A stretch of DNA of 64,000 nt from Flavobacterium indicum GPTSA100-9 = DSM 17447 (lineage in GTDB: Bacteria > Bacteroidota > Bacteroidia > Flavobacteriales > Flavobacteriaceae), in NCBI RefSeq assembly GCF_000455605.1, contig NC_017025.1, forward strand, positions 2,294,001 to 2,358,000, given 5' to 3'. The stretch's first letter is position 1. The number at the start of each line of letters is the position of its first letter. Position numbers and translations under genes: made by a program. The notes under the pieces were generated by a model, which worked only from the letters and a program-made list of their open reading frames with translations, ran no database searches and was not told the origin of the DNA. This document shows, piece after piece, positions 5,964 through 31,365 of this stretch.

Positions 5964-7325
5964 TTAATTAATAGAACTAATAATATCGTGTTTTGTAATG
6001 ATATGGAATTTACCATTTTCTAATTCTACTAGAACCGCTTGATTGTCTTTACTAATTAATTTAGAAACTTCTTCTATTGGGGCAGTAGCTTTCACAATAG
6101 GATATGGTTTACCCATTACTTCTTTTATAGGTAAATCAGCGATATCTTTATTTTCAAAATAACTTCTAAATAAATCAGATTCATCAACACTACCAACAAA
6201 TCCGGTGGTATCAATAACTGGAATTTGAGAAATTTTATATTTTTTTAATCGTTCTATAGCATGTGAAACTAATTCTTCTGTACGAACAATAACTAATGGT
6301 TTATCTTTATGATCTTTAATCAAATCTTCAGCTTTAGTGATTTCTTCATCTAAGAAACCTCGCTCACGCATCCAATCGTCATTAAACATTTTACCAACGT
6401 ATCTACTTCCTGAGTCATGGAATAAAACCACCACTACATCATCCGGTCCAAAATGTTCTTTTAATTGTAGCACACCTTTAATAGCAGCACCTGCAGAATT
6501 ACCAACAAATATACCTTCTTCCAATGCTAGTTTTCTTGTAAAAACAGCAGCATCTTTATCAGTTACTTTAGTAAAACCATCAATTAATGAAAAATCGACA
6601 TTTTTAGGTAAAATATCTTCGCCAATACCTTCTGTAATGTACGAGTAAATTTCATTTTCATCAAAAATTCCCGTTTCATGATATTTTTTAAAAACAGAAC
6701 CGTAAGTATCAATACCCCAACATTTTACATTTGGATTTTTTTCTTTTAAGTATTTTGCTACTCCAGAAATAGTACCACCTGTACCAACACCAACAACAAA
6801 ATGTGTAATTTTACCTTCCGTTTGTTCCCAAATTTCCGGACCTGTTTGCTCATAATGTGCTGTTGCATTACTTGGATTATCATACTGATTTACATACCAA
6901 GCATTTGGTGTTTCTTCAGCCAAACGCTTTGAAACAGAATAATAAGACCGTGGATCTGTTGGTTCAACATCCGTAGGACAAACCACTACTTTAGCTCCTA
7001 CAGCTCTTAAAATATCCATTTTTTCTTTAGACTGTTTATCTGAAATTACACAAATAAGTTTGTATCCTTTTACAATAGCTGCTAATGCTAAACCCATTCC
7101 AGTATTTCCAGAAGTTCCTTCAATAATAGTTCCTCCAGGTTTTAAACGACCATCTGCTTCAGCATCTTCTATCATTTTAACTGCCATTCTGTCTTTAACA
7201 GAATTTCCAGGATTAAAAGTTTCTACTTTTGCTAAAACAAGACAATCAAGTCCTTCAGTAATTTTATTTAATTTTACTAATGGAGTATTTCCAATAGTTT
7301 CTAAGATATTTTTTGCGTATTTCAT
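5964..7325 (-). CDS. Cystathionine beta-synthase-like PLP enzyme with CBS-domain pair
   Basis: A 453-residue two-part enzyme. Residues 1-320 are a fold type II PLP catalytic domain: NTPLVKLNKI, the PLP lysine in NPGNSVKDRMAV, the phosphate loop EGTSGNTGMGLAL, and the [17 protein letters not shown] glycine loop. Residues about 335-453 form a tandem CBS regulatory domain. The layout matches cystathionine beta-synthase or O-acetylserine sulfhydrylase with a regulatory tail; reading alone does not separate these activities. A paralogue without the CBS pair lies at 26138-27178. A -7 match TACCTTTG lies at 7372-7379 upstream, and the gene ends in its own terminator. Confidence 0.88.
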   Translation of the reverse strand: MKYAKNILETIGNTPLVKLNKITEGLDCLVLAKVETFNPGNSVKDRMAVKMIEDAEADGRLKPGGTIIEGTSGNTGMGLALAAIVKGYKLICVISDKQSKEKMDILRAVGAKVVVCPTDVEPTDPRSYYSVSKRLAEETPNAWYVNQYDNPSNATAHYEQTGPEIWEQTEGKITHFVVGVGTGGTISGVAKYLKEKNPNVKCWGIDTYGSVFKKYHETGIFDENEIYSYITEGIGEDILPKNVDFSLIDGFTKVTDKDAAVFTRKLALEEGIFVGNSAGAAIKGVLQLKEHFGPDDVVVVLFHDSGSRYVGKMFNDDWMRERGFLDEEITKAEDLIKDHKDKPLVIVRTEELVSHAIERLKKYKISQIPVIDTTGFVGSVDESDLFRSYFENKDIADLPIKEVMGKPYPIVKATAPIEEVSKLISKDNQAVLVELENGKFHIITKHDIISSIN

Positions 7326-7371
7326 TATTATCTAATTTAACAATAATTTTATTTTCATTTATAAAAGAAAA

Positions 7372-7379
7372 CAAAGGTA
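7372..7379 (-). promoter_or_regulatory. Possible -7 box of the CBS-domain PLP enzyme gene
   Basis: The minus strand reads TACCTTTG, a full match to TAnnTTTG, 46 bases before the start codon. No TTG was seen at the right distance. Confidence 0.4.
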
Positions 7380-7406
7380 AGTCGAATATATTATGTTTTT
7401 GTACTT

Positions 7407-9272
7407 CTATTTAAATAAATTCCATTCTAATCCAAATCTAACTTTAAAATCATGGTAGGGATAATTTGGTGTATTATAATAATTACGTTCACCAAACAAC
7501 GCATTAAAATGTTCTGCTTTCAAATAAATTCTAACTTGCCTTACACGTGCATTTACAAAGAAATCTAACATCGGAAAACCCCCAATTTTTGTTTGTTTTT
7601 GCACATAAAATTCACCTAAAACAGGATTATAATCATCTGCATAATAATTGGTAAAATAATTTAAAGTTACACCCGTTTGAAGCAACATAGCACTTTTAAA
7701 TACATGATCCATGTAGTAAAGGGAATTCCTAGTAATAATATAAGGCACATTAACAATTTTAGCATTTTGCTTTACGTCTTGAAATTTAATTCTATTATCA
7801 AAACCAAACTTTTTATATTTAAATTCCTTAGCAATTTCAATAGTATAATATTGAATACTTTTATCGAACTGTAAAGGCTTAACTACTAAACTATCGATTC
7901 GTTCTGCTAAATTATAGAAATACATTTTATCATTATAGAGACTGTATTGAGCAGCTAAAGAAAACCATTTTGTAGTAGCATTCACTTTTAAACTAGTTTC
8001 TTTTTCATTTTTAAAAGTATTCCTCCAGTTATAATTCTCATAAGAACTTTGAAAAAATAAATAACTATTATCTGGAATTTTACTTGTTTGTTGTGCTTTA
8101 ATTTCAATTGAATTTATGTTATCAAAATTGAATTTAGCGGAAGCTTCAAGGGTTGAATTTTGACGTTTAGAAATTGAATTTTGAGCTAAAACATTAAACC
8201 TCCATTTTGAATGAAAAAAATCATATTGTCCTCCAATTGTATTTATCCTATTGTGCAAATTTTTAGGCATATTCAACAAATCTGCATAAGAAGTATTACT
8301 ACCGTAAAATTGGTTATAAACATAATTATCAATAAAAAAATATAACTCCCCAAATTTTTTTGTTAAAAAGCTAACACCTGCCTTATTATAAAAAACATCG
8401 AAACGAGTTTTATTATTTAAATTCGAAGTAAATTCAGCATTTCCTAATCTGTTAGAAACGGTAGATTGTAAAAATTCATAAAACTTATACTCATAAAACG
8501 CCTGATGTTTAAATACCAAAGAATTACTCTCTTTTAATTTATAACTATGATCAATAAATAAACGATTACCTTTTAATTTTGAAGAAGCATTTTCAAAAAA
8601 AACATCTATACGTTCTCTTTGCTTAAATGAATCTTCATTTCCTTCAAATTGTGATACTTCTTTAAGTCCTCCATATTCTTGATTAAATATATCTTGTCCA
8701 ACAAAATGAGAATTCATGTAGTATTTTTTATTAGGGGAAAAATAACTAGAAATAAATCTAAAATGTCCTGAACTTGTAAGATTGTTATAATAATCACCAA
8801 TGGACCGTATTGCTTTATATGCTACGGTAAAATTTAAATTCTTTTGAGTATTTAAAGATAAAAGTGCATCTAAACTTTGACCTTGACGCATAACCGTCTT
8901 AAAATACAAATCAGTAAGTGGAGTGGGCACAGAATAATAACTTATATCAGTGTCACTTAAATAAGCAATATGCTTAGCATTAAAACCAAATTGCGGGAAT
9001 AAAGATATTTTCTTTTTAGAATAATCTAATTGCGTATATAAATATCCTTCATTAGCAAAAGACAATAATCCAAAATTATCTTTTCTTAGATAATTGTATT
9101 TATACTCATCTGTAATAGTTAAAGAGGTATCGATTACTATAGTATCTTTTTTTAAAGTATATAACTTATATAATTGAATATCTGCTTTAACTGATTTTAC
9201 AGTTGATGTATCTTTTGTTTGTGAAAAAGATATAAGTGGTAAAAGGAGCAAAAAGAAAAATAATTTTCCCAT
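7407..9272 (-). CDS. Putative porin (Porin_10-like outer-membrane protein)
   Basis: A 621-residue exported protein with signal peptide MGKLFFFLLLLPLISFSQ. The rest is rich in alternating aromatic/polar strands and ends in an amphipathic strand FKVRFGLEWNLFK with a terminal aromatic-basic pair, as expected for an outer-membrane beta-barrel. The N-terminal region YNYLRKDNFGLLSFANEGYL fits the family called 'putative porin' in Flavobacteriaceae. The solute is unknown. It follows SusD on the same strand but is separated by a terminator, and a -7 match TACATTTG (9290-9297) suggests its own promoter. Confidence 0.78.
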   Translation of the reverse strand: MGKLFFFLLLLPLISFSQTKDTSTVKSVKADIQLYKLYTLKKDTIVIDTSLTITDEYKYNYLRKDNFGLLSFANEGYLYTQLDYSKKKISLFPQFGFNAKHIAYLSDTDISYYSVPTPLTDLYFKTVMRQGQSLDALLSLNTQKNLNFTVAYKAIRSIGDYYNNLTSSGHFRFISSYFSPNKKYYMNSHFVGQDIFNQEYGGLKEVSQFEGNEDSFKQRERIDVFFENASSKLKGNRLFIDHSYKLKESNSLVFKHQAFYEYKFYEFLQSTVSNRLGNAEFTSNLNNKTRFDVFYNKAGVSFLTKKFGELYFFIDNYVYNQFYGSNTSYADLLNMPKNLHNRINTIGGQYDFFHSKWRFNVLAQNSISKRQNSTLEASAKFNFDNINSIEIKAQQTSKIPDNSYLFFQSSYENYNWRNTFKNEKETSLKVNATTKWFSLAAQYSLYNDKMYFYNLAERIDSLVVKPLQFDKSIQYYTIEIAKEFKYKKFGFDNRIKFQDVKQNAKIVNVPYIITRNSLYYMDHVFKSAMLLQTGVTLNYFTNYYADDYNPVLGEFYVQKQTKIGGFPMLDFFVNARVRQVRIYLKAEHFNALFGERNYYNTPNYPYHDFKVRFGLEWNLFK

Positions 9273-9289
9273 AAGAAATTTTTATGCAA

Positions 9290-9297
9290 CAAATGTA
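9290..9297 (-). promoter_or_regulatory. Possible -7 box of the putative porin gene
   Basis: The minus strand reads TACATTTG 17 bases before the porin start and about 20 bases after the SusD terminator. Only a weak T-rich -33 region is present. Confidence 0.4.
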
Positions 9298-9311
9298 ATG
9301 AGAAAAGATAA

Positions 9312-9342
9312 AATAAAAAAACCCCGACTGTGTCGGGGTTTT
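9312..9342 (-). terminator. Terminator of the SusC-SusD operon
   Basis: On the minus strand AACCCCGAC pairs with GTCGGGGTT around a short ACA loop, followed by seven T. It is 30 bases after the susD-like stop codon. Confidence 0.9.
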
Positions 9343-9373
9343 AAATATAATTTAATATATATATATATTTCAA

Positions 9374-11023
9374 TTATTGTCTCCAGAATGGAGTCATAGA
9401 GTTTATAACAAACACATCATTACTCGTCATTGGAGGTACATTAGCACTATTAGCTACATACTCAGAAACTGGATAGATTAATCTATAAGGTTTACGAGAT
9501 TGAATAGCAACAGATGATAATGGAGTTAAAGGATAACCAGTTCTAGTATAATCGATATACGATTCAATAGCATTGATACCCATTAAAGCAACCCATTTTT
9601 GGTACATAATTGCATGTAACTTTTGGCTATCAGTTCCAGTCCAACCGAAGTTAGGTCTTGAATTGATAGACGTAATATACGTACCTAAAGCAGCATTTCT
9701 AAATGCAAAGTTATCAGTAATACCTTCCTCAAACCAATATTGAGCATTTGAGAATAAAGCAGGGTATCTTAAAGCAGCTTCAGCTTGTAAGAAACATGCT
9801 TCAGAATATGTCATAACAAAACCATCTACTCCGAAGAAGTCTTTTGGATAACCTAAATTTACACCAGCAAAAATTTGAGCTTGATCATAAGGATTAACAT
9901 GACCTTGAGCCCCCAAACGACATGGAGGTCCAGGCAAAGGAGTACCAGGAGCAGCAACGTCAACTTGAGATGAACCTTGATTAACAGCTCTTCTTGGACC
10001 TGTAGTATTATTTTGAATACCACCTGTAAAGATTCTACCAGAACGTGGATCTGTTAAATTTGGATAATTAACACCTGAACCAGCAACAATTTCTTGAGAA
10101 CCAGCAGCAGGGTAATTAGTTGTAGCATAACTTTGTAATGATTTCCAAGCGTGACCAGTCATAGCAATGAATAATCTATTTGCTTGATTGTTTTCAGCAG
10201 CATCCCAGAAGAATGTATTTGCAATTGGATTTACATTTGCATCTGTTGAACCATCAAAACCAGGATTAATTGCAACATTATCACTTAAGAAAGAAGCAGA
10301 AGCTAAATCATTTAATTTAGCAGTTCTAAAAGCAACAACATTAGCATCTGTAGATTCAGACATTCTTAAACACATTCTTAATTGGATAGTGTTAGCGAAT
10401 TCAATCCACATATTTAAGTCACCATGTAACATGATGTCTTTTTGATCAATAAGCTCAGCAACAGCAGGATCAGCGTTATTGATTAAATCTCTAGCTTCTT
10501 CTAATTCAGTAACTAAAGCTTTGTAAATTTCAAAGTCATCATCATAAGAAGGTGTTACATTTGCATTACCTTTCCATGCTTCAGTATAAGGAGCATCTCC
10601 ATATAAATCAACGATGTACTGCATGTAATGTGCTTTACAAATTTTTGCTACCGCTTGATAATAATCGTATTTACCATTATCATTTGGATATTTCAAAATA
10701 CCATCAAAGTTTTTAAGTTGACGGTAAAGTCCATCCCAAATTCCATTATAAAATGAATTATCTACATTAAGTTGTAATTCTTTATCATAACCATTACCAT
10801 AAGAGTTAACGTTTCTAGTCCATGAATTCATGAACACGTTTCCTAACTGATTCATAGTAGTAGCTTGAACTCTATATGTAGATAACTGAGCACCAGGCAA
10901 TAATTGAGCCGGAGTTACTTTCTCATACAACAATTGATTTTCACTGTTGTTGATATCTAAATATTGGTCGCACGAGAATAGCGTTAAAGCTAAAACAGGT
11001 GCTAAAAATTTAATTTTTTTCAT
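9374..11023 (-). CDS. SusD/RagB-like nutrient-binding outer-membrane lipoprotein
   Basis: About 549 residues from the ATG at 11023, giving signal peptide MKKIKFLAPVLALTLFSCDQ with the lipobox Cys. An upstream TTG would add two residues. It resembles the SusD-like_2 branch: N-terminal YLDINNSENQ, helix-rich TPR-like repeats (DGLYRQLKNFDGILKYPND, KICKAHYMQYIVDLYGDAPY) and the C-terminal WVALMGINAIESYIDYTRTG. SusD proteins cap the SusC barrel and bind the substrate at the cell surface. It starts 10 bases after the SusC-like stop, a tight operon. No glycoside hydrolase or peptidase lies beside the pair, so the substrate cannot be inferred. Confidence 0.92.
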   Translation of the reverse strand: MKKIKFLAPVLALTLFSCDQYLDINNSENQLLYEKVTPAQLLPGAQLSTYRVQATTMNQLGNVFMNSWTRNVNSYGNGYDKELQLNVDNSFYNGIWDGLYRQLKNFDGILKYPNDNGKYDYYQAVAKICKAHYMQYIVDLYGDAPYTEAWKGNANVTPSYDDDFEIYKALVTELEEARDLINNADPAVAELIDQKDIMLHGDLNMWIEFANTIQLRMCLRMSESTDANVVAFRTAKLNDLASASFLSDNVAINPGFDGSTDANVNPIANTFFWDAAENNQANRLFIAMTGHAWKSLQSYATTNYPAAGSQEIVAGSGVNYPNLTDPRSGRIFTGGIQNNTTGPRRAVNQGSSQVDVAAPGTPLPGPPCRLGAQGHVNPYDQAQIFAGVNLGYPKDFFGVDGFVMTYSEACFLQAEAALRYPALFSNAQYWFEEGITDNFAFRNAALGTYITSINSRPNFGWTGTDSQKLHAIMYQKWVALMGINAIESYIDYTRTGYPLTPLSSVAIQSRKPYRLIYPVSEYVANSANVPPMTSNDVFVINSMTPFWRQ

Positions 11024-27214: not shown

Positions 27215-28201
27215 TTATAACTTATAATTAATATTCAATGTCCAACGGGATTTCGCTTCAACAAGCCCCGACATTAAATTTTGATTGATGGGTTTAAAAT
27301 AAGTAGCTCCCAATGAAAATTTATTCCAGCCAATTTCTACACCAATTTTACCGAAAAGCACATCTCCTGTAGTATTGCGGACTTTTTCCCCATATTGATA
27401 ATTACTGGCATATACTTCACCTGCAACACCCAATTGAGGAGCAATAGCCATTTGATTTTTTTCAAATAAATAATACAACGTTGAGCCATAATTAAATTGA
27501 TTCCCAAATCGGTATTCTTTTTTATTTTCTGTTTTTACAACATAATTTAAAAGATTATTAATTCCCATTTTTTTGAACCTTAACACATATTCAGATGAAA
27601 ACAAATAATCCCAACTGCCCGTTCCTACTTGAAAACTTGGATTTACACTTCCTGCACTTGTTTCTTTATATTCTCCTGTAGGTGCTTTAATTCCAACTCC
27701 CACTTGCCAATTATGTTTAAAAACGGTACTATCTTTATGTGTTTGATAGACCGTTACCAATCCAACCACAGTAACATCTCCCATTCCGCTGATCTCTTGG
27801 CTTCCTGTTTTGGTATTTAGACTATGAAAATGATAAGGTAGTAACGTTGAAATTTGAACACCTTTAACAATTGGAATTCGCGCCCAAACTTGTAGAGTAT
27901 TGTAATTTTCATTTAACCAAGGTGAATTGGAATACAAACCATCATTTGAACGGTAATGTTGATTAAAATAACGTACCCCAACAAAATTAGAATTTAGCAT
28001 TGAAGCAAATCCCATACTCCCACCACTGGCAGAACAACCACAAGCATCGCAATCGTCAAAATAAGTCGTCTTTATATTTCTATTACCAAAATATGATGGA
28101 TTATTATATTCCATTTTATTGGCATTTTGAGTATTGAATTTAGGTTTTTCGTGCGCTTGCATTACTAAAACAAACAGTAATGCACTAATTATTTTTTTCA
28201 T
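27215..28201 (-). CDS. Outer-membrane barrel protein with N-terminal Cys cluster, MbnP/MbnH-linked
   Basis: A 328-residue exported protein: signal peptide about 1-16, then a loop with FDDCDACGCSASGGSMGFAS (about 50-70), followed by repeating amphipathic strands (IPIVKGVQISTLLPYHFHSL, WQVGVGIKAPTGEYKET, NQMAIAPQLGVAGEVYASN) ending RWTLNINYKL. This is the layout of small 'transporter' barrel proteins (MetA-pathway/phenol type). The Cys-x2-Cys-x-Cys cluster close to the mature N-terminus could bind metal. It is the last gene of the cluster, ten bases after the di-heme peroxidase, so a role in metal passage across the outer membrane is inferred, not shown. Confidence 0.72.
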   Translation of the reverse strand: MKKIISALLFVLVMQAHEKPKFNTQNANKMEYNNPSYFGNRNIKTTYFDDCDACGCSASGGSMGFASMLNSNFVGVRYFNQHYRSNDGLYSNSPWLNENYNTLQVWARIPIVKGVQISTLLPYHFHSLNTKTGSQEISGMGDVTVVGLVTVYQTHKDSTVFKHNWQVGVGIKAPTGEYKETSAGSVNPSFQVGTGSWDYLFSSEYVLRFKKMGINNLLNYVVKTENKKEYRFGNQFNYGSTLYYLFEKNQMAIAPQLGVAGEVYASNYQYGEKVRNTTGDVLFGKIGVEIGWNKFSLGATYFKPINQNLMSGLVEAKSRWTLNINYKL

Positions 28202-28211
28202 TTTTATTTAA

Positions 28212-29249
28212 TTAAAATTCTGCAAACCTTGGATCCGTTAAAAATTGGTGATCGGTTAAGGTTTTTAAAAAGGCTATGATTTTTGTTTTTTCAGTAGTAG
28301 TTAAAGGTATTCCTAAATTTCCATTCGTAGTTAAAGAGGCATCTAAATTAGGGGTATTTTGCACTCCGTTTGAATAATGATTTAAAACCGCTTCTAAGGT
28401 ATAAAAACGACCATCATGCATGTAGGGTGCCGTTTTCTCAATATTACGCAAACTAGGTACTTTAAACTTGTATTTATATTGTTGCAATTCTGTAACTCGA
28501 TAATAACCCATATCGTTTATTTGTGGATTAATACTCAATCCATTATTTCTGAAGCTATTATCCGTAAAAAGATCCGTTGCATGGCATGAAGCACATTTTT
28601 GATTAAAGATAGCATACCCCTCTACTTCGTCCTGAGTTAAAGTACCTCCTGCTTCATTTCTACGATATTTATCGAAGCGCGAATTAGAAGAAACTGTTAA
28701 CACCATGAACTGTCCTAATGCTTTTAGCATATTTTCTGAATTAATTTGTCCGTCTGGAAAAGCTTGTTTAAACAATTTTACATATACCGGATCTGCTTTC
28801 ATCATGGCAACAATTTGGGTAAAGTTACCATTCATCTCAATAGGACTTGTCAAAGGAATTATAGGTTGCAAATCGAGATGAGTCGTAGCCCCGTCCCACA
28901 TAAAGGCCGTTTGAAAAGCTAAATTTTGAATAGGTGGTGTATTTCTTGTTCCAATATTATCCCCTACTCCATGACTAAAGGTATGTCCGTGATGCGTAAA
29001 TGCATCGGCTTGAATATGGCAAAATCCACACGAAACCACGCCATCGGAAGATAAACGTCCGTCGTAAAACAATTTTTTTCCCAGTTCAAAACCTTTTTCA
29101 GTTAATGGGTTATTACTTAAATCATAAGCTATATCAGGAAAGTTAGCAGGTTTTTGAAAATTAATGGGTAAATTTTGGTATTCTTCGTTCTCTTCTTTAG
29201 AACAACTCAACACCATAAAAGCAAGAATTCCTAAAATTATCTGTTTCAT
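28212..29249 (-). CDS. Di-heme cytochrome c peroxidase, MbnH/MauG-like lipoprotein
   Basis: A 345-residue protein with lipoprotein signal MKQIILGILAFMVLSCSKEE (Cys 16). Two heme c motifs are present: SCGFCHIQADAF (CxxCH at 74-78) and KCASCHATDLF (CxxCH at 219-223). The conserved RNTPPIQNLAFQTAFMWDG and KVPSLRNIEKTAPYMHDGRF segments identify the bacterial CcpA/MauG superfamily. In methanobactin systems, the MbnH member oxidises a tryptophan of MbnP to kynurenine. The neighbour here encodes an MbnP-like protein, so that role is favoured over plain peroxide removal. The exact high-spin/low-spin ligands cannot be assigned by reading. Confidence 0.85.
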   Translation of the reverse strand: MKQIILGILAFMVLSCSKEENEEYQNLPINFQKPANFPDIAYDLSNNPLTEKGFELGKKLFYDGRLSSDGVVSCGFCHIQADAFTHHGHTFSHGVGDNIGTRNTPPIQNLAFQTAFMWDGATTHLDLQPIIPLTSPIEMNGNFTQIVAMMKADPVYVKLFKQAFPDGQINSENMLKALGQFMVLTVSSNSRFDKYRRNEAGGTLTQDEVEGYAIFNQKCASCHATDLFTDNSFRNNGLSINPQINDMGYYRVTELQQYKYKFKVPSLRNIEKTAPYMHDGRFYTLEAVLNHYSNGVQNTPNLDASLTTNGNLGIPLTTTEKTKIIAFLKTLTDHQFLTDPRFAEF

Positions 29250-29262
29250 TTTATCTAGGTTT

Positions 29263-29398
29263 TAGCCCTGACAGCAATGGAAAGCCCACAAGGCGTATAG
29301 TTTCTTTTTCTTCACAATACAAAGCGACCAAAGAAGCTTTAGTAGGGTGATTAGAAAAAAGAACTATACGACTGAGGACTTGCAATGAATGGCAGGAA
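29263..29398. repeat. Dispersed palindromic intergenic repeat, copy 2
   Basis: Located between the MbnP-like and di-heme peroxidase genes. The outer arms begin TAGCCCTGACAGCAATGG and end TTGCAATGAATGGCAGGA and pair imperfectly. An inner stem pairs CGTATAGTTTCTTTTTCT with AGAAAAAAGAACTATACG. The outer arms resemble those of the element at 16646-16722. It contains no open frame. If transcribed it would form a long hairpin inside the operon. Confidence 0.65.
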
Positions 29399-29411
29399 TG
29401 AGCTTCTTTAA

Positions 29412-30197
29412 TTAATCATTATGTACATGGTGTACCTCAAACATATTCGCCAAATTTGCAGTTACCAAAGCTAATTTAGCTCCTCCCATAACCATAGCTT
29501 GCTCGGACAAATTAATTTTATTTGTACCGTCCAATACTTGTTTTAAATCGGCCATAATATGCACTTGTGGCGTAATGGTAGTACGTACTAAAGCTTTATC
29601 AGGAAAATTTAAAGTAATTTCTGCGTAATTATAATCGGTTCCTGTTTTTCCGGTATGTACCATATACATAGCACCTGTAGATTGCGTTGAAGAAGTAAAC
29701 ATACCTTCAAGAGCTAAAAATTTATACCCGGCACTCCACGACCACATCATACCGGCATCTTGTGCTGTAGCTAAAAAATCCCCTTGACCAGTAGCGCCTT
29801 GATTAAATTGCTCTTGATCCACTCCTATTCCGAATTTAATTTTGGTATAATTACCCGCTGGAATATTAGGTAAATTTAGTAAGGTTGAAGATTCGGTAAA
29901 TTCATCAATAATGAAATAGCTTTGGCTTTTTGGAACTGTATAAGTAGAACCGTCTTCTTTAGTTAGTACAATATTACTAACAATATATTTAGCCTTAGAA
30001 ATAGAAACTTCTTCCCCATTGGAATTGGTGTAAACTGCTCCTTGAATAAAATCGGCATCGCCATAAGTTTGATCAAACTCAACTTTTAAGCTACCCGTAC
30101 CTGTTAGTTGTTCAGAAGCATTATCATCATTAGAACATGAAAATGCGAAAAATGCTGCTGTTAAAACAGCGAAAAATTTGATATAGTGTAATTTCAT
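29412..30197 (-). CDS. MbnP-like copper-associated lipoprotein
   Basis: A 261-residue lipoprotein (signal to FAFSCSNDD, Cys 21) of the MbnP family. Features are GTGSLKVEFDQTYGD at the mature start, NLPNIPAGNYTKIKFGIGVD in the middle, and the hallmark DAGMMWSWSAGYKFLALEG with Trp 152 and Trp 154. The C-terminus ends with several His (FEVHHVHND). In studied relatives, MbnH oxidises a Trp in such a motif to kynurenine, and MbnP then binds copper. The W-x-W sequence, the C-terminal His cluster and the adjacent di-heme enzyme all fit. Copper binding by this protein itself is an inference. Confidence 0.85.
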   Translation of the reverse strand: MKLHYIKFFAVLTAAFFAFSCSNDDNASEQLTGTGSLKVEFDQTYGDADFIQGAVYTNSNGEEVSISKAKYIVSNIVLTKEDGSTYTVPKSQSYFIIDEFTESSTLLNLPNIPAGNYTKIKFGIGVDQEQFNQGATGQGDFLATAQDAGMMWSWSAGYKFLALEGMFTSSTQSTGAMYMVHTGKTGTDYNYAEITLNFPDKALVRTTITPQVHIMADLKQVLDGTNKINLSEQAMVMGGAKLALVTANLANMFEVHHVHND

Positions 30198-30212
30198 AAT
30201 AATCTATTTTAA

Positions 30213-30229
30213 GTGTATAGTGTATAGTG
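30213..30229. repeat. Short tandem repeat upstream of the MbnP-like gene
   Basis: The plus strand reads two and a half GTGTATA units (GTGTATAGTGTATAGTG), 16 bases before the MbnP-like start on the other strand. It could be an operator or chance repetition. Confidence 0.4.
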
Positions 30230-30251
30230 CCCAATGGCAAAAAAATGTAGT

Positions 30252-30276
30252 CTATGCTGATTGCAAAACCGCATAG
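30252..30276. other. Small hairpin upstream of the MbnP-like gene
   Basis: CTATGC (30252-30257) pairs perfectly with GCATAG (30271-30276) around 13 bases. It lies 55-80 bases upstream of the MbnP-like start. No function is assigned. Confidence 0.4.
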
Positions 30277-30360
30277 AAAATGGCCTTCTGTGTAAATCAT
30301 ACAAGAAGAATAGTATTTATACTTTAAAAAGTAAAATAAAAATGTAAATTTGAATGAATG

Positions 30361-30468
30361 AATTGAATTTTGAAACGCTCGAAAGTACCTGCGCATTCAT
30401 TGACTGGTATGCACAGGGCGTTTCTTTTACCTGTTTTTGAGATAAAAGCCAACGTAATAAATTCAATT
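30361..30468. other. Nested inverted-repeat element between the CDGKC protein and MbnP-like genes
   Basis: Four nested paired segments can be read. AATTGAATTT (30361-30370) pairs with AAATTCAATT (30459-30468). GAAACGC (30372-30378) pairs with GCGTTTC (30418-30424). CCTGCGCAT (30388-30396) pairs with ATGCACAGG (30409-30417) with one mismatch, closing a 12-nt loop. A nine-base bulge joins the two inner stems. No T-tract follows, so it is not a simple terminator. The strand cannot be settled; it would be in the leader or spacer RNA of the minus-strand cluster. Confidence 0.6.
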
Positions 30469-30481
30469 AAAAAGTTAAATA

Positions 30482-30853
30482 CTAGACACTAGGAGGGTGA
30501 AAAATGGTATGCGTAGACAAATACGCATATAAATTCTGATACTTATTTTTAACCTTTAAGGAAGTAAAGAAAAGAATGGGTTTAGAAATTAAAGTTGTCT
30601 TACTTTCAAAAAACAGCACTTCTGATTCTTGTTTTGAAGTAGCTTTTTTATCGGAAGAAATGGGTTTTTCCTCTTCTGAGGCTTTTGCCAACTCCTTTTT
30701 TAAATGACATTTTCCGTCACAATGCATTTCGGGTTTGGCTTTATTTTCACATAATTCTTTAGCTATATACTCATAGTTGACCCAATAATCTACCATAGGT
30801 AAAATAGGTTTTGACAAGATTAATAAAGCGACTATGAATCCGAAATATTTCAC
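30482..30853 (-). CDS. Small CxGKC-motif protein at the head of the MbnP/MbnH cluster
   Basis: A 123-residue protein with GTG start. An N-terminal hydrophobic segment (MKYFGFIVALLILSKPILPM) is followed by NYEYIAKELCENKAKPEMHC and DGKCHLKKELAKASEEEKPI, giving Cys, Cys, Cys and His in a compact group, and a conserved end HTIFHPPSV. I recognise this as a conserved small Bacteroidetes protein of unknown function. The Cys/His group and position ahead of MbnP suggest metal handling or anchoring. A -7 match TATATTTG ends only about five bases before the GTG, so the message may be nearly leaderless. Confidence 0.7.
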   Translation of the reverse strand: MKYFGFIVALLILSKPILPMVDYWVNYEYIAKELCENKAKPEMHCDGKCHLKKELAKASEEEKPISSDKKATSKQESEVLFFESKTTLISKPILFFTSLKVKNKYQNLYAYLSTHTIFHPPSV

Positions 30854-30960: not shown

Positions 30961-31365
30961 ATGAAAAAGTATGTATTTATTATTGCATTAGTAGTATCGG
31001 GATTATCGTTTGCTCAAGAAAAAGGAAAATTTAAGAATGCAACAGCAGAAGAAAGAGCAGAAATGCAAACTAAAAAAATGACAAAAGATTTAACTTTAAC
31101 TAAAGAACAAGAAGAAAAAGTAACTGCCATTTTAAAAGAACATCATTCTAGTTTAGAAGCAAAAAAAGAAGAAATTAAAAATGAACAAATTGAAGCTAAA
31201 AAAGAACGACGCCAAAAAGCAATGAAAGAAATGAAAGAAAGTCGTTCGGAGTTAAAAGAAAAATTAAAAGGTGTTTTAACAGAAGAGCAATATAAAAAAT
31301 GGGAATCGCTTCAAAATGAACGCATTGAAAAAGTTAAAAATCACAAAATAAGTCCTAAAGAATAG
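30961..31365 (+). CDS. Small exported helical protein (DUF4890/Spy-like)
   Basis: A 134-residue protein with signal peptide MKKYVFIIALVVSGLSFAQ. The mature part is almost wholly charged amphipathic helix with LTKEQEEKVTAILKEHH and LKGVLTEEQYKKWESLQNER, resembling the L-T-x-x-Q motifs of Spy/CpxP chaperones. Spy-like proteins are periplasmic chaperones induced by envelope or metal stress. It is divergent from the copper-related cluster across a 107-bp gap, which may or may not be meaningful. A second small exported protein follows 73 bases later. Confidence 0.72.
   Translation: MKKYVFIIALVVSGLSFAQEKGKFKNATAEERAEMQTKKMTKDLTLTKEQEEKVTAILKEHHSSLEAKKEEIKNEQIEAKKERRQKAMKEMKESRSELKEKLKGVLTEEQYKKWESLQNERIEKVKNHKISPKE

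Follow-up and report, generated by a model that had tools for sequence, protein, structure and literature searches.

The subject of this report is a four-gene cassette in Flavobacterium indicum GPTSA100-9 = DSM 17447. The window, meaning the whole 64,000-nucleotide stretch that was analysed (contig NC_017025.1, positions 2,294,001 to 2,358,000 of the forward strand), carries the cassette at positions 27,215 to 30,853, and all coordinates below are window positions. An earlier note, made from the sequence alone, described four same-strand genes here as a copper unit that suggested a relay. All four open reading frames (ORFs) are present on the minus strand as claimed. The cassette is real, widely kept together, and partly known. 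We lean towards reading it as a copper-acquisition cassette controlled by a cis-acting, copper-responsive leader gene. From first to last, the genes are:

30853-30482, minus strand: CDGKC protein, 123 amino acids (aa), GTG start; candidate copper-responsive leader ORF of the CutF/CruR class by architecture.
29412..30197, minus strand: MbnP-family lipoprotein, 261 aa, with C21 within a lipobox-like stretch.
28212..29249, minus strand: MbnH/MauG-type di-heme lipoprotein, 345 aa, with lipobox C16; identified by PF03150 and PDB match.
27215..28201, minus strand: predicted outer-membrane beta-barrel of the channel type, 328 aa, by model and fold match.

Members and distribution of the cassette

The 261-aa protein belongs to the MbnP family, as had been proposed. 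It matches PF20243 with an E value of 4.8e-47 and 160.7 bits, above the curated cut-off of 27, and its fold agrees with MbnP. Against TIGR04052 it scores 46 bits, under the cut-off of 140.

The description of the third gene as a di-heme, MbnH/MauG-like lipoprotein with two CxxCH motifs is borne out by CGFCH at residues 74-78, CASCH at residues 219-223, and a PF03150 match of 3.5e-51. The best PDB match is 6e1c ("Di-heme enzyme", 2.2e-42), which we take to be the MbnH of Methylosinus trichosporium. The protein scores 231 bits against TIGR04039, under the cut-off of 362.85, and 194 bits against TIGR03791 (MauG), also under the cut-off. Because none of 100 relatives reaches the TIGR04039 cut-off, the label MbnH-type is used. 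Its conserved positions, counted over 137 cassette MbnHs, are:

29016..29030, minus strand: heme motif 1, CGFCH (74-78), both Cys and the His in 137/137.
28581..28595, minus strand: heme motif 2, CASCH (219-223), both Cys and the His in 137/137.
28374..28376, minus strand: Y292, aligned with a Tyr of 6e1c, Tyr in 137/137.

The Y292 position is presumably that of the MauG-type axial (sixth-position) heme ligand. Residue W118, in a WDG motif (window 28896-28898), varies: 46 of the 137 copies have Trp here, 87 have Tyr, and 4 have Phe. The WDG Trp sits between the hemes in MauG and the bacterial peroxidases.

The last gene, for which "barrel" had been a guess and which was thought a possible new component, resolves as a probable barrel of the channel type, with FapF and a COG4313 channel as its nearest folds. 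The model has long beta strands and middling confidence (predicted local distance difference test, pLDDT, of 70.4), and the stretch from residue 15 to 69 is left disordered. The top fold matches are FapF (1.0e-9) and the COG4313 channel 4rl8 (1.9e-8). By sequence, the window protein matches no family (PF13557 included) and nothing in the PDB; PF13557 is a precomputed domain of some listed homologues. In addition to the barrel fold shared with these outer-membrane channels, the window protein has a Cys-rich, disordered tag:

28034..28051, minus strand: CDACGC tag (51-56) before the barrel, with CDxCGC in 108/109 barrel rows.

This count has one place counted twice and includes MbnH-less loci that keep the barrel. 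CDACGC had been placed near the mature N-terminus. The motif is present, but it lies some way inside the protein, in the disordered stretch.

Co-occurrence was surveyed in 100 genomes, the source genome included, with gene order scored by eye. MbnP is matched in 58 genomes, CDGKC in 63, and the barrel in 25. TIGR04039 at E <= 1e-40 is matched in at least 76, a threshold that also catches other di-heme proteins. All four genes stand in the same order in 19 of the 25 barrel-match genomes, so the neighbourhood is not a product of chance, and the co-occurrence check proposed in the earlier note comes out in its favour. Two further genomes lack MbnH (G011 and G026), and two have CDGKC and the barrel alone (G063 and G083), the weak barrel match in G083 being a PF13557 protein without the Cys tag. 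In G098, CDGKC and the barrel lie approximately 3.5 kb away from a divergent MbnP/MbnH pair, and G093 has a weak, lone barrel match. The order CDGKC-MbnP-MbnH-barrel is exact in 64 of 80 named loci, which were picked via MbnP similarity; the remaining 16 are variants or are cut short.

The ratio of nonsynonymous to synonymous substitution rates (dN/dS) is 0.05-0.18 for MbnP, the barrel, and CDGKC in the pairs tested, with some synonymous values near saturation and two not computable. These are thus not dead genes, and purifying selection acts on them in the pairs tested. No match to MbnB (PF05114) was found in the source genome, in line with the stated absence of methanobactin genes.

The MbnP-MbnH gap (window 29250-29411) is 162 nucleotides in length and contains an imperfect inverted repeat around GTATAGTT/AACTATAC, identified by eye. 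It may be an inserted repeat element. In L145/L226 (G188), MbnP and MbnH each lie in two frames, as broken genes or assembly errors.

The CDGKC gene and its payloads

The first gene had been put forward as a possible new component of a relay. Its sequence fits better with a leader that acts in cis and responds to copper: the protein is small, has a hydrophobic N-terminus (by eye), a Cys motif, and a C-terminal Pro-Pro, and its gene heads same-strand genes, which is the profile of CutF and CruR. Its two motifs, both assigned by conservation, are:

30707..30751, minus strand: Cys motif C35-x9-C45-D-G-K-C49, putative Cu(I) site.
30491..30502, minus strand: F118-H-P-P121, putative arrest motif, followed by the two final residues.

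Sixty homologues were found among the ORFs of 60 fetched loci, which were hand-chosen by barrel, MbnP, and CDGKC matches. A CxGxC motif together with Pro-Pro in the last 15 aa is present in 59 of them, at a spacing of 63-72 aa (median 68), and the gene that follows has the same orientation in 59. By comparison, 6 of the 728 remaining gene-like ORFs there have a terminal Pro-Pro. Alignment of 37 of the 60, with identities down to 19%, leaves only C35, C45, G47, C49, P120, and P121 invariant. In the cassette loci, the Cys motif is found in 143/143 copies counted, and 143/144 have Pro-Pro among their last 15 aa. The RAPP arrest motif is not present; 136 of 143 copies have FHPP, FRPP, or FKPP (F[HRK]PP). 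Among the 120 database homologues listed, out of 378, the Cys motif is in all 120 and both motifs are in 119. No Pfam or NCBIfam model matches more than 2 of the 37 aligned members. Membership in DUF2946, the CruR family, was rejected, as none of the 37 matches it at E <= 1.

CutF is described as having a CxxxC motif, a proline-rich C-terminal motif, and a cleavable signal sequence, and the CutF-like class, which includes Bacteroidota members, was filtered on Pro-Pro in the last 15 residues (PMC9973294). The window protein falls within the published filters, with 123 aa (<150), Pro-Pro at 120-121 (last 15), and a same-strand next gene 284 nucleotides away (<1000). CruR has CXXC and RAPP, and leaders of its type were placed at the head of operons with MbnPH-like genes in 2022 (PMC9426467). 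The word "MbnP" is absent from the main text of the CutF paper (PMC9973294). The CDGKC protein resembles these leaders in being a small, putatively exported protein with a Cys motif and a C-terminal Pro-Pro, encoded first and followed by a gap before the next gene. It differs in lacking DUF2946, in having CxGxC plus an upstream third Cys, in ending in F[HRK]PP and not RAPP, and in its median motif spacing of 68, as opposed to 45 for CruR (PMC9426467). Other Bacteroidota leader peptides with a C-terminal proline are described upstream of secDF (PMC10987492).

An alternative that we consider unlikely, while granting it real weight, is that CDGKC works as a periplasmic or membrane-anchored copper chaperone, the first part of a relay, with the terminal Pro-Pro serving stability or degradation. 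The hydrophobic N-terminus and the Cys motif would suit such a protein, and its dN/dS of 0.10-0.16 in the pairs tested indicates that the protein itself is selected. Yet invariance is limited to the Cys motif and the terminal Pro-Pro at near-fixed spacing, the gene precedes unrelated payloads (described below), and those published CutF-like criteria that could be checked are matched (PMC9973294).

The gap behind the leader was folded as a candidate RNA element:

30198..30481, minus strand: CDGKC-MbnP gap, 284 nucleotides, predicted to be structured (z score of −4.4 in the window).

The mean z score is −2.88 for this gap over 133 cassettes, −0.23 for coding sequence, and −1.74 for the remaining same-strand gaps of those loci. 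Since ordinary gaps of this kind are structured as well, the stronger claim, that of a structured regulatory RNA, was dropped. A three-hairpin structure, named by hand, covaries on 11 leaders, with 81.4% of cells paired vs 72.1% in shuffles and 23 double changes vs 9.7. The rows were picked by a middle-stem pattern (12 of 140), with L279 left out and L197 shortened for alignment; the outer stems come from a best-pairing scan over the same 11 rows that were tested for covariation. Rfam at gathering score finds only 5S rRNA in the loci, in five of them. The predicted gap structure is taken as supporting evidence only.

Several points weigh against the leader reading. FHPP differs from the RAPP/RGPP motif that was examined for arrest (PMC12992588), and LepB fusions bearing CutF's own C-terminus gave no stalling (PMC9973294). 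The excess of structured leader gaps is moderate (68-73% below a z score of −2 vs 44% of other same-strand gaps), and RNAalifold alone yields one short stem.

The genes behind the leader vary. Distinct gaps of 40-400 nucleotides lead to MbnP in 22 cases, a YtkA-like lipoprotein in 22, AraC regulators in 2, barrels in 2, a TonB receptor in 1, and other genes in 5; given the hand-chosen loci, these are not frequencies. At one chromosomal site, recognised by a divergent Spy-like gene and, past it, hemL (named by eye), 13 fetched loci were compared. The payload is MbnP-MbnH-barrel in eight, a YtkA lipoprotein in four, and another TonB receptor in one. A TonB receptor is visible in three of the four YtkA loci, and the fourth is cut first by the locus end. 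Compared with TIGR01778 (TonB-dependent copper receptor), the receptors of L110 and L104 score 1.4e-78 and 6.3e-42, both under the curated cut-off, and the L104 receptor matches OprC in the PDB. The payload of the leader is thus swappable between MbnP-MbnH-barrel and a YtkA lipoprotein plus OprC-like TonB receptor. OprC-type receptors form the alternative payload behind the same leader and are not part of the window cassette.

The divergent Spy/LTXXQ-like gene of the window (30961-31365, plus strand) has weak matches; in addition to the window, 15 fetched loci have relatives of it close to the leader. The gene is kept at a single chromosomal site, and its presence is counted as synteny; it is not regarded as part of the cassette. 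In L067-L069 (G088, G064, and G077), CDGKC-MbnP-MbnH-barrel is preceded, within one gene run, by genes for YHS, SCO1, and Fe/Mn superoxide dismutase, and these in turn by a second CDGKC copy.

The shared leader and the OprC-like alternative payload are the main reason for reading the cassette as copper acquisition. The swap points to copper uptake as the common job. Two points count against this: the case for uptake over efflux rests on the OprC-like alternative payload, and in L098, where a third receptor follows the leader, the matches are to siderophore and heme models, not to TIGR01778.

That the cassette instead serves copper detoxification, with MbnP and the barrel exporting copper and the leader switching the system on in copper excess as CutF does for CutO, seems improbable to us. 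CutF promotes CutO production with copper, and the commonest CutF-like neighbours are outer-membrane efflux proteins (PMC9973294). The neighbouring gene is weakly Spy/LTXXQ-like, and the top fold of the barrel, FapF, is a secretion channel. Against export stand the lack of an inner-membrane pump among the four genes, the OprC-like alternative payload, and, in the methanotroph protein CorA, repression by copper (PMC3912023). Less probable again is a role of MbnP-MbnH and the barrel in the maturation of an envelope cuproenzyme, a heme-copper oxidase or similar, and not in nutrient uptake; the gene run of L067-L069 and the cytochrome oxidase-like genes (by eye) beside L225 suit it, but such contexts are found in few loci and a barrel implies outer-membrane transport.

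Two sets of conserved residues in MbnP

Studies of M. trichosporium MbnP reportedly found the first Trp of a WxW motif converted to kynurenine, with His and Met near the copper. The corresponding residues of the window protein, whose numbering as W152 and W154 is correct, and a second set of His residues are:

29736..29750, minus strand: M150-M-W152-S-W154, putative MbnH-dependent site with W152 the expected kynurenine, by co-loss counts.
29655..29657, minus strand: H181, putative copper ligand in the W152 site, by co-loss counts.
29559..29561, minus strand: H213, second His set, kept in all 147 rows (146 listed places), the MbnH-less included.
29421..29429, minus strand: H257-V-H259, C-terminal HxH, kept in all 147 rows (146 listed places).

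In 398 Flavobacterium genomes, MbnP is matched in 224 and MbnH (E <= 1e-70) in 243. Among the 150 MbnP places listed, a listed MbnH lies no more than 2.5 kb away in 142. The comparison covers 146 of these places (147 rows, one place twice), with G373, G236, G232, and G197 left out. G188, among the eight places for which no MbnH was listed, carries both MbnH and MbnP in pieces and is scored as having MbnH.

With MbnH adjacent, W152, W154, and H181 are kept in 139/139 MbnPs. At the seven listed places without it, W152 is kept in 2/7, H181 in 3/7, and W154 in 7/7, and H213, H257, and H259 are also kept in all seven. W152 is lost in G011, G253, G108, G324, and G128, where Gly, Leu, Ser, Pro, or a changed T-G-S-W stretch is found, and four of these (all except G011) have lost H181 as well. 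No MbnH match at E <= 1e-70 was found in G011, G253, or G108 (76% complete); in G011, TIGR04039 matches a frame of 599 residues more weakly. The named locus L174 adds another case: it has no MbnH and has lost both W152 and H181. Fisher's test gives a p of 4e-8 for the MbnH-W152 association, with phylogeny ignored, and parsimony counts 6/5 changes in MbnH/W152 on one tree and 7/6 on another.

W152 goes with MbnH while W154 stays, and this points to W152 as the likely target of MbnH. Either Trp had been predicted as the oxidised residue; the co-loss would favour W152. Independent losses are few, and other observations also weaken the link. The sign test has only four well-supported independent pairs, none contrary, with a median p of 0.125. 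G324 and G128 lost W152 though each genome has one MbnH match elsewhere. W152 is kept in two of the seven MbnH-less MbnPs, those of G026 and G409 (67% complete), both with an MbnH match elsewhere; the distant MbnH of G026 has no MbnP beside it. In L074 (G063; 6459-8763), three tandem MbnPs lie beside MbnH and the middle one lacks WxW. Drift in decaying operons, and not enzyme-substrate dependence, could draw on the few events and on the MbnH matches kept elsewhere in G324 and G128, but is very improbable given the dN/dS of 0.05-0.18 in the pairs tested and the retention of W154, H213, H257, and H259 in all cases while W152 and H181 go.

The set of H213 and the HxH survives the MbnH-linked decay and mostly goes with the barrel. 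Among the MbnPs of L002-L110, the HxH-ending forms come from loci or genomes with a barrel, and those of barrel-less loci lack HxH; this comparison includes many short loci, and shared descent of the HxH forms as a single clade may account for it. The barrel loci of G063 and G098 without MbnP have instead a small lipoprotein ending in HVHM or HCHPM, matching DUF4625 (34.5 bits, over the cut-off) or weakly so. A strict link between HxH and barrel is opposed by L225 (G128), which keeps HxH with MbnH lost and no barrel seen in a 13-kb locus, and by the second MbnPs of L179 and L189, which lack HxH beside a barrel.

L225 (3668-9853) is a hybrid, with cytochrome oxidase-like genes (by eye), CDGKC, an MbnP without the W152 site, a YtkA-like lipoprotein, and a TonB receptor. 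L179 and L189 (~6000-10670) each contain two tandem MbnP-MbnH pairs in one cassette, the second MbnP with WMW and without a C-terminal HxH.

Relation to known systems and proposed mechanism

Compared with the MbnP/MbnH pair of M. trichosporium (PDB 7l6g), the cassette has no MbnB match, a lipobox on both proteins, a C-terminal HxH, and an adjoining barrel and CDGKC leader, and Tyr takes the place of the WDG Trp in 87 of 137 cassette MbnHs. CorA/CorB and MopE/SACCP of methanotrophs are alike in having a kynurenine copper site, two His, and a co-transcribed di-heme partner (PMC3912023). They differ in using Kyn62 and His64 (WxH) where cassette MbnP has WxW, and another study calls the CorA and MopE sequences not markedly similar to MbnP (PMC3621798). 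That study noted MbnP/MbnH pairs far beyond methanobactin producers in 2013 (PMC3621798). MbnP/MbnH outside methanobactin operons and the leader class with its Bacteroidota members are thus already in print. The earlier note's family assignments and the co-occurrence stand. A literature search of titles and abstracts, with most subscription journals outside it, found nothing on this cassette, MbnH/W152 co-loss, leader-payload swapping, or a barrel-linked HxH site.

The gene set, motifs, order, swapping, and co-loss are established at the level of sequence. From them we infer arrest, copper binding, and transport as follows. Cu(I) held at C35, C45, and C49 during translation or export of CDGKC would alter ribosome passage over the F-H-P-P end, and this passage would decide downstream gene expression, most likely under copper shortage. 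MbnH, as a MauG-type di-heme enzyme, would oxidise W152 of MbnP to kynurenine, natural co-loss supporting this choice of residue. The kynurenine, H181, and probably M150 may complete a copper site. Via the MbnH-independent H213 and H257-x-H259, MbnP may pass copper to, or work with, the CDxCGC-tagged barrel. The barrel would be an outer-membrane channel, with transport through it, and its direction, likewise presumed.

A broader proposal is offered tentatively, as somewhat less likely than not to hold. A distinct Bacteroidota family of copper-sensing nascent peptides (C-x9-C-x-G-x-C ... F[HRK]PP) would head interchangeable outer-membrane copper payloads. MbnP would have two metal sites, one built by MbnH at W152 and repeatedly discarded with MbnH, the other an MbnH-independent His site serving the CDxCGC channel. 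The channel, not the kynurenine pair, would then be the core of the cassette.

A ready genetic test of the role of MbnP/MbnH outside methanobactin operons is offered by related species that differ in having MbnH, Flavobacterium sp. SM15 being one that lacks it. In species without MbnH, the expected target Trp tends to be lost in step and the rest of MbnP is kept. The loci also offer a Bacteroidota model for nascent-chain copper sensing. Because one leader stands before different uptake modules, leader and payload lend themselves to separate study.

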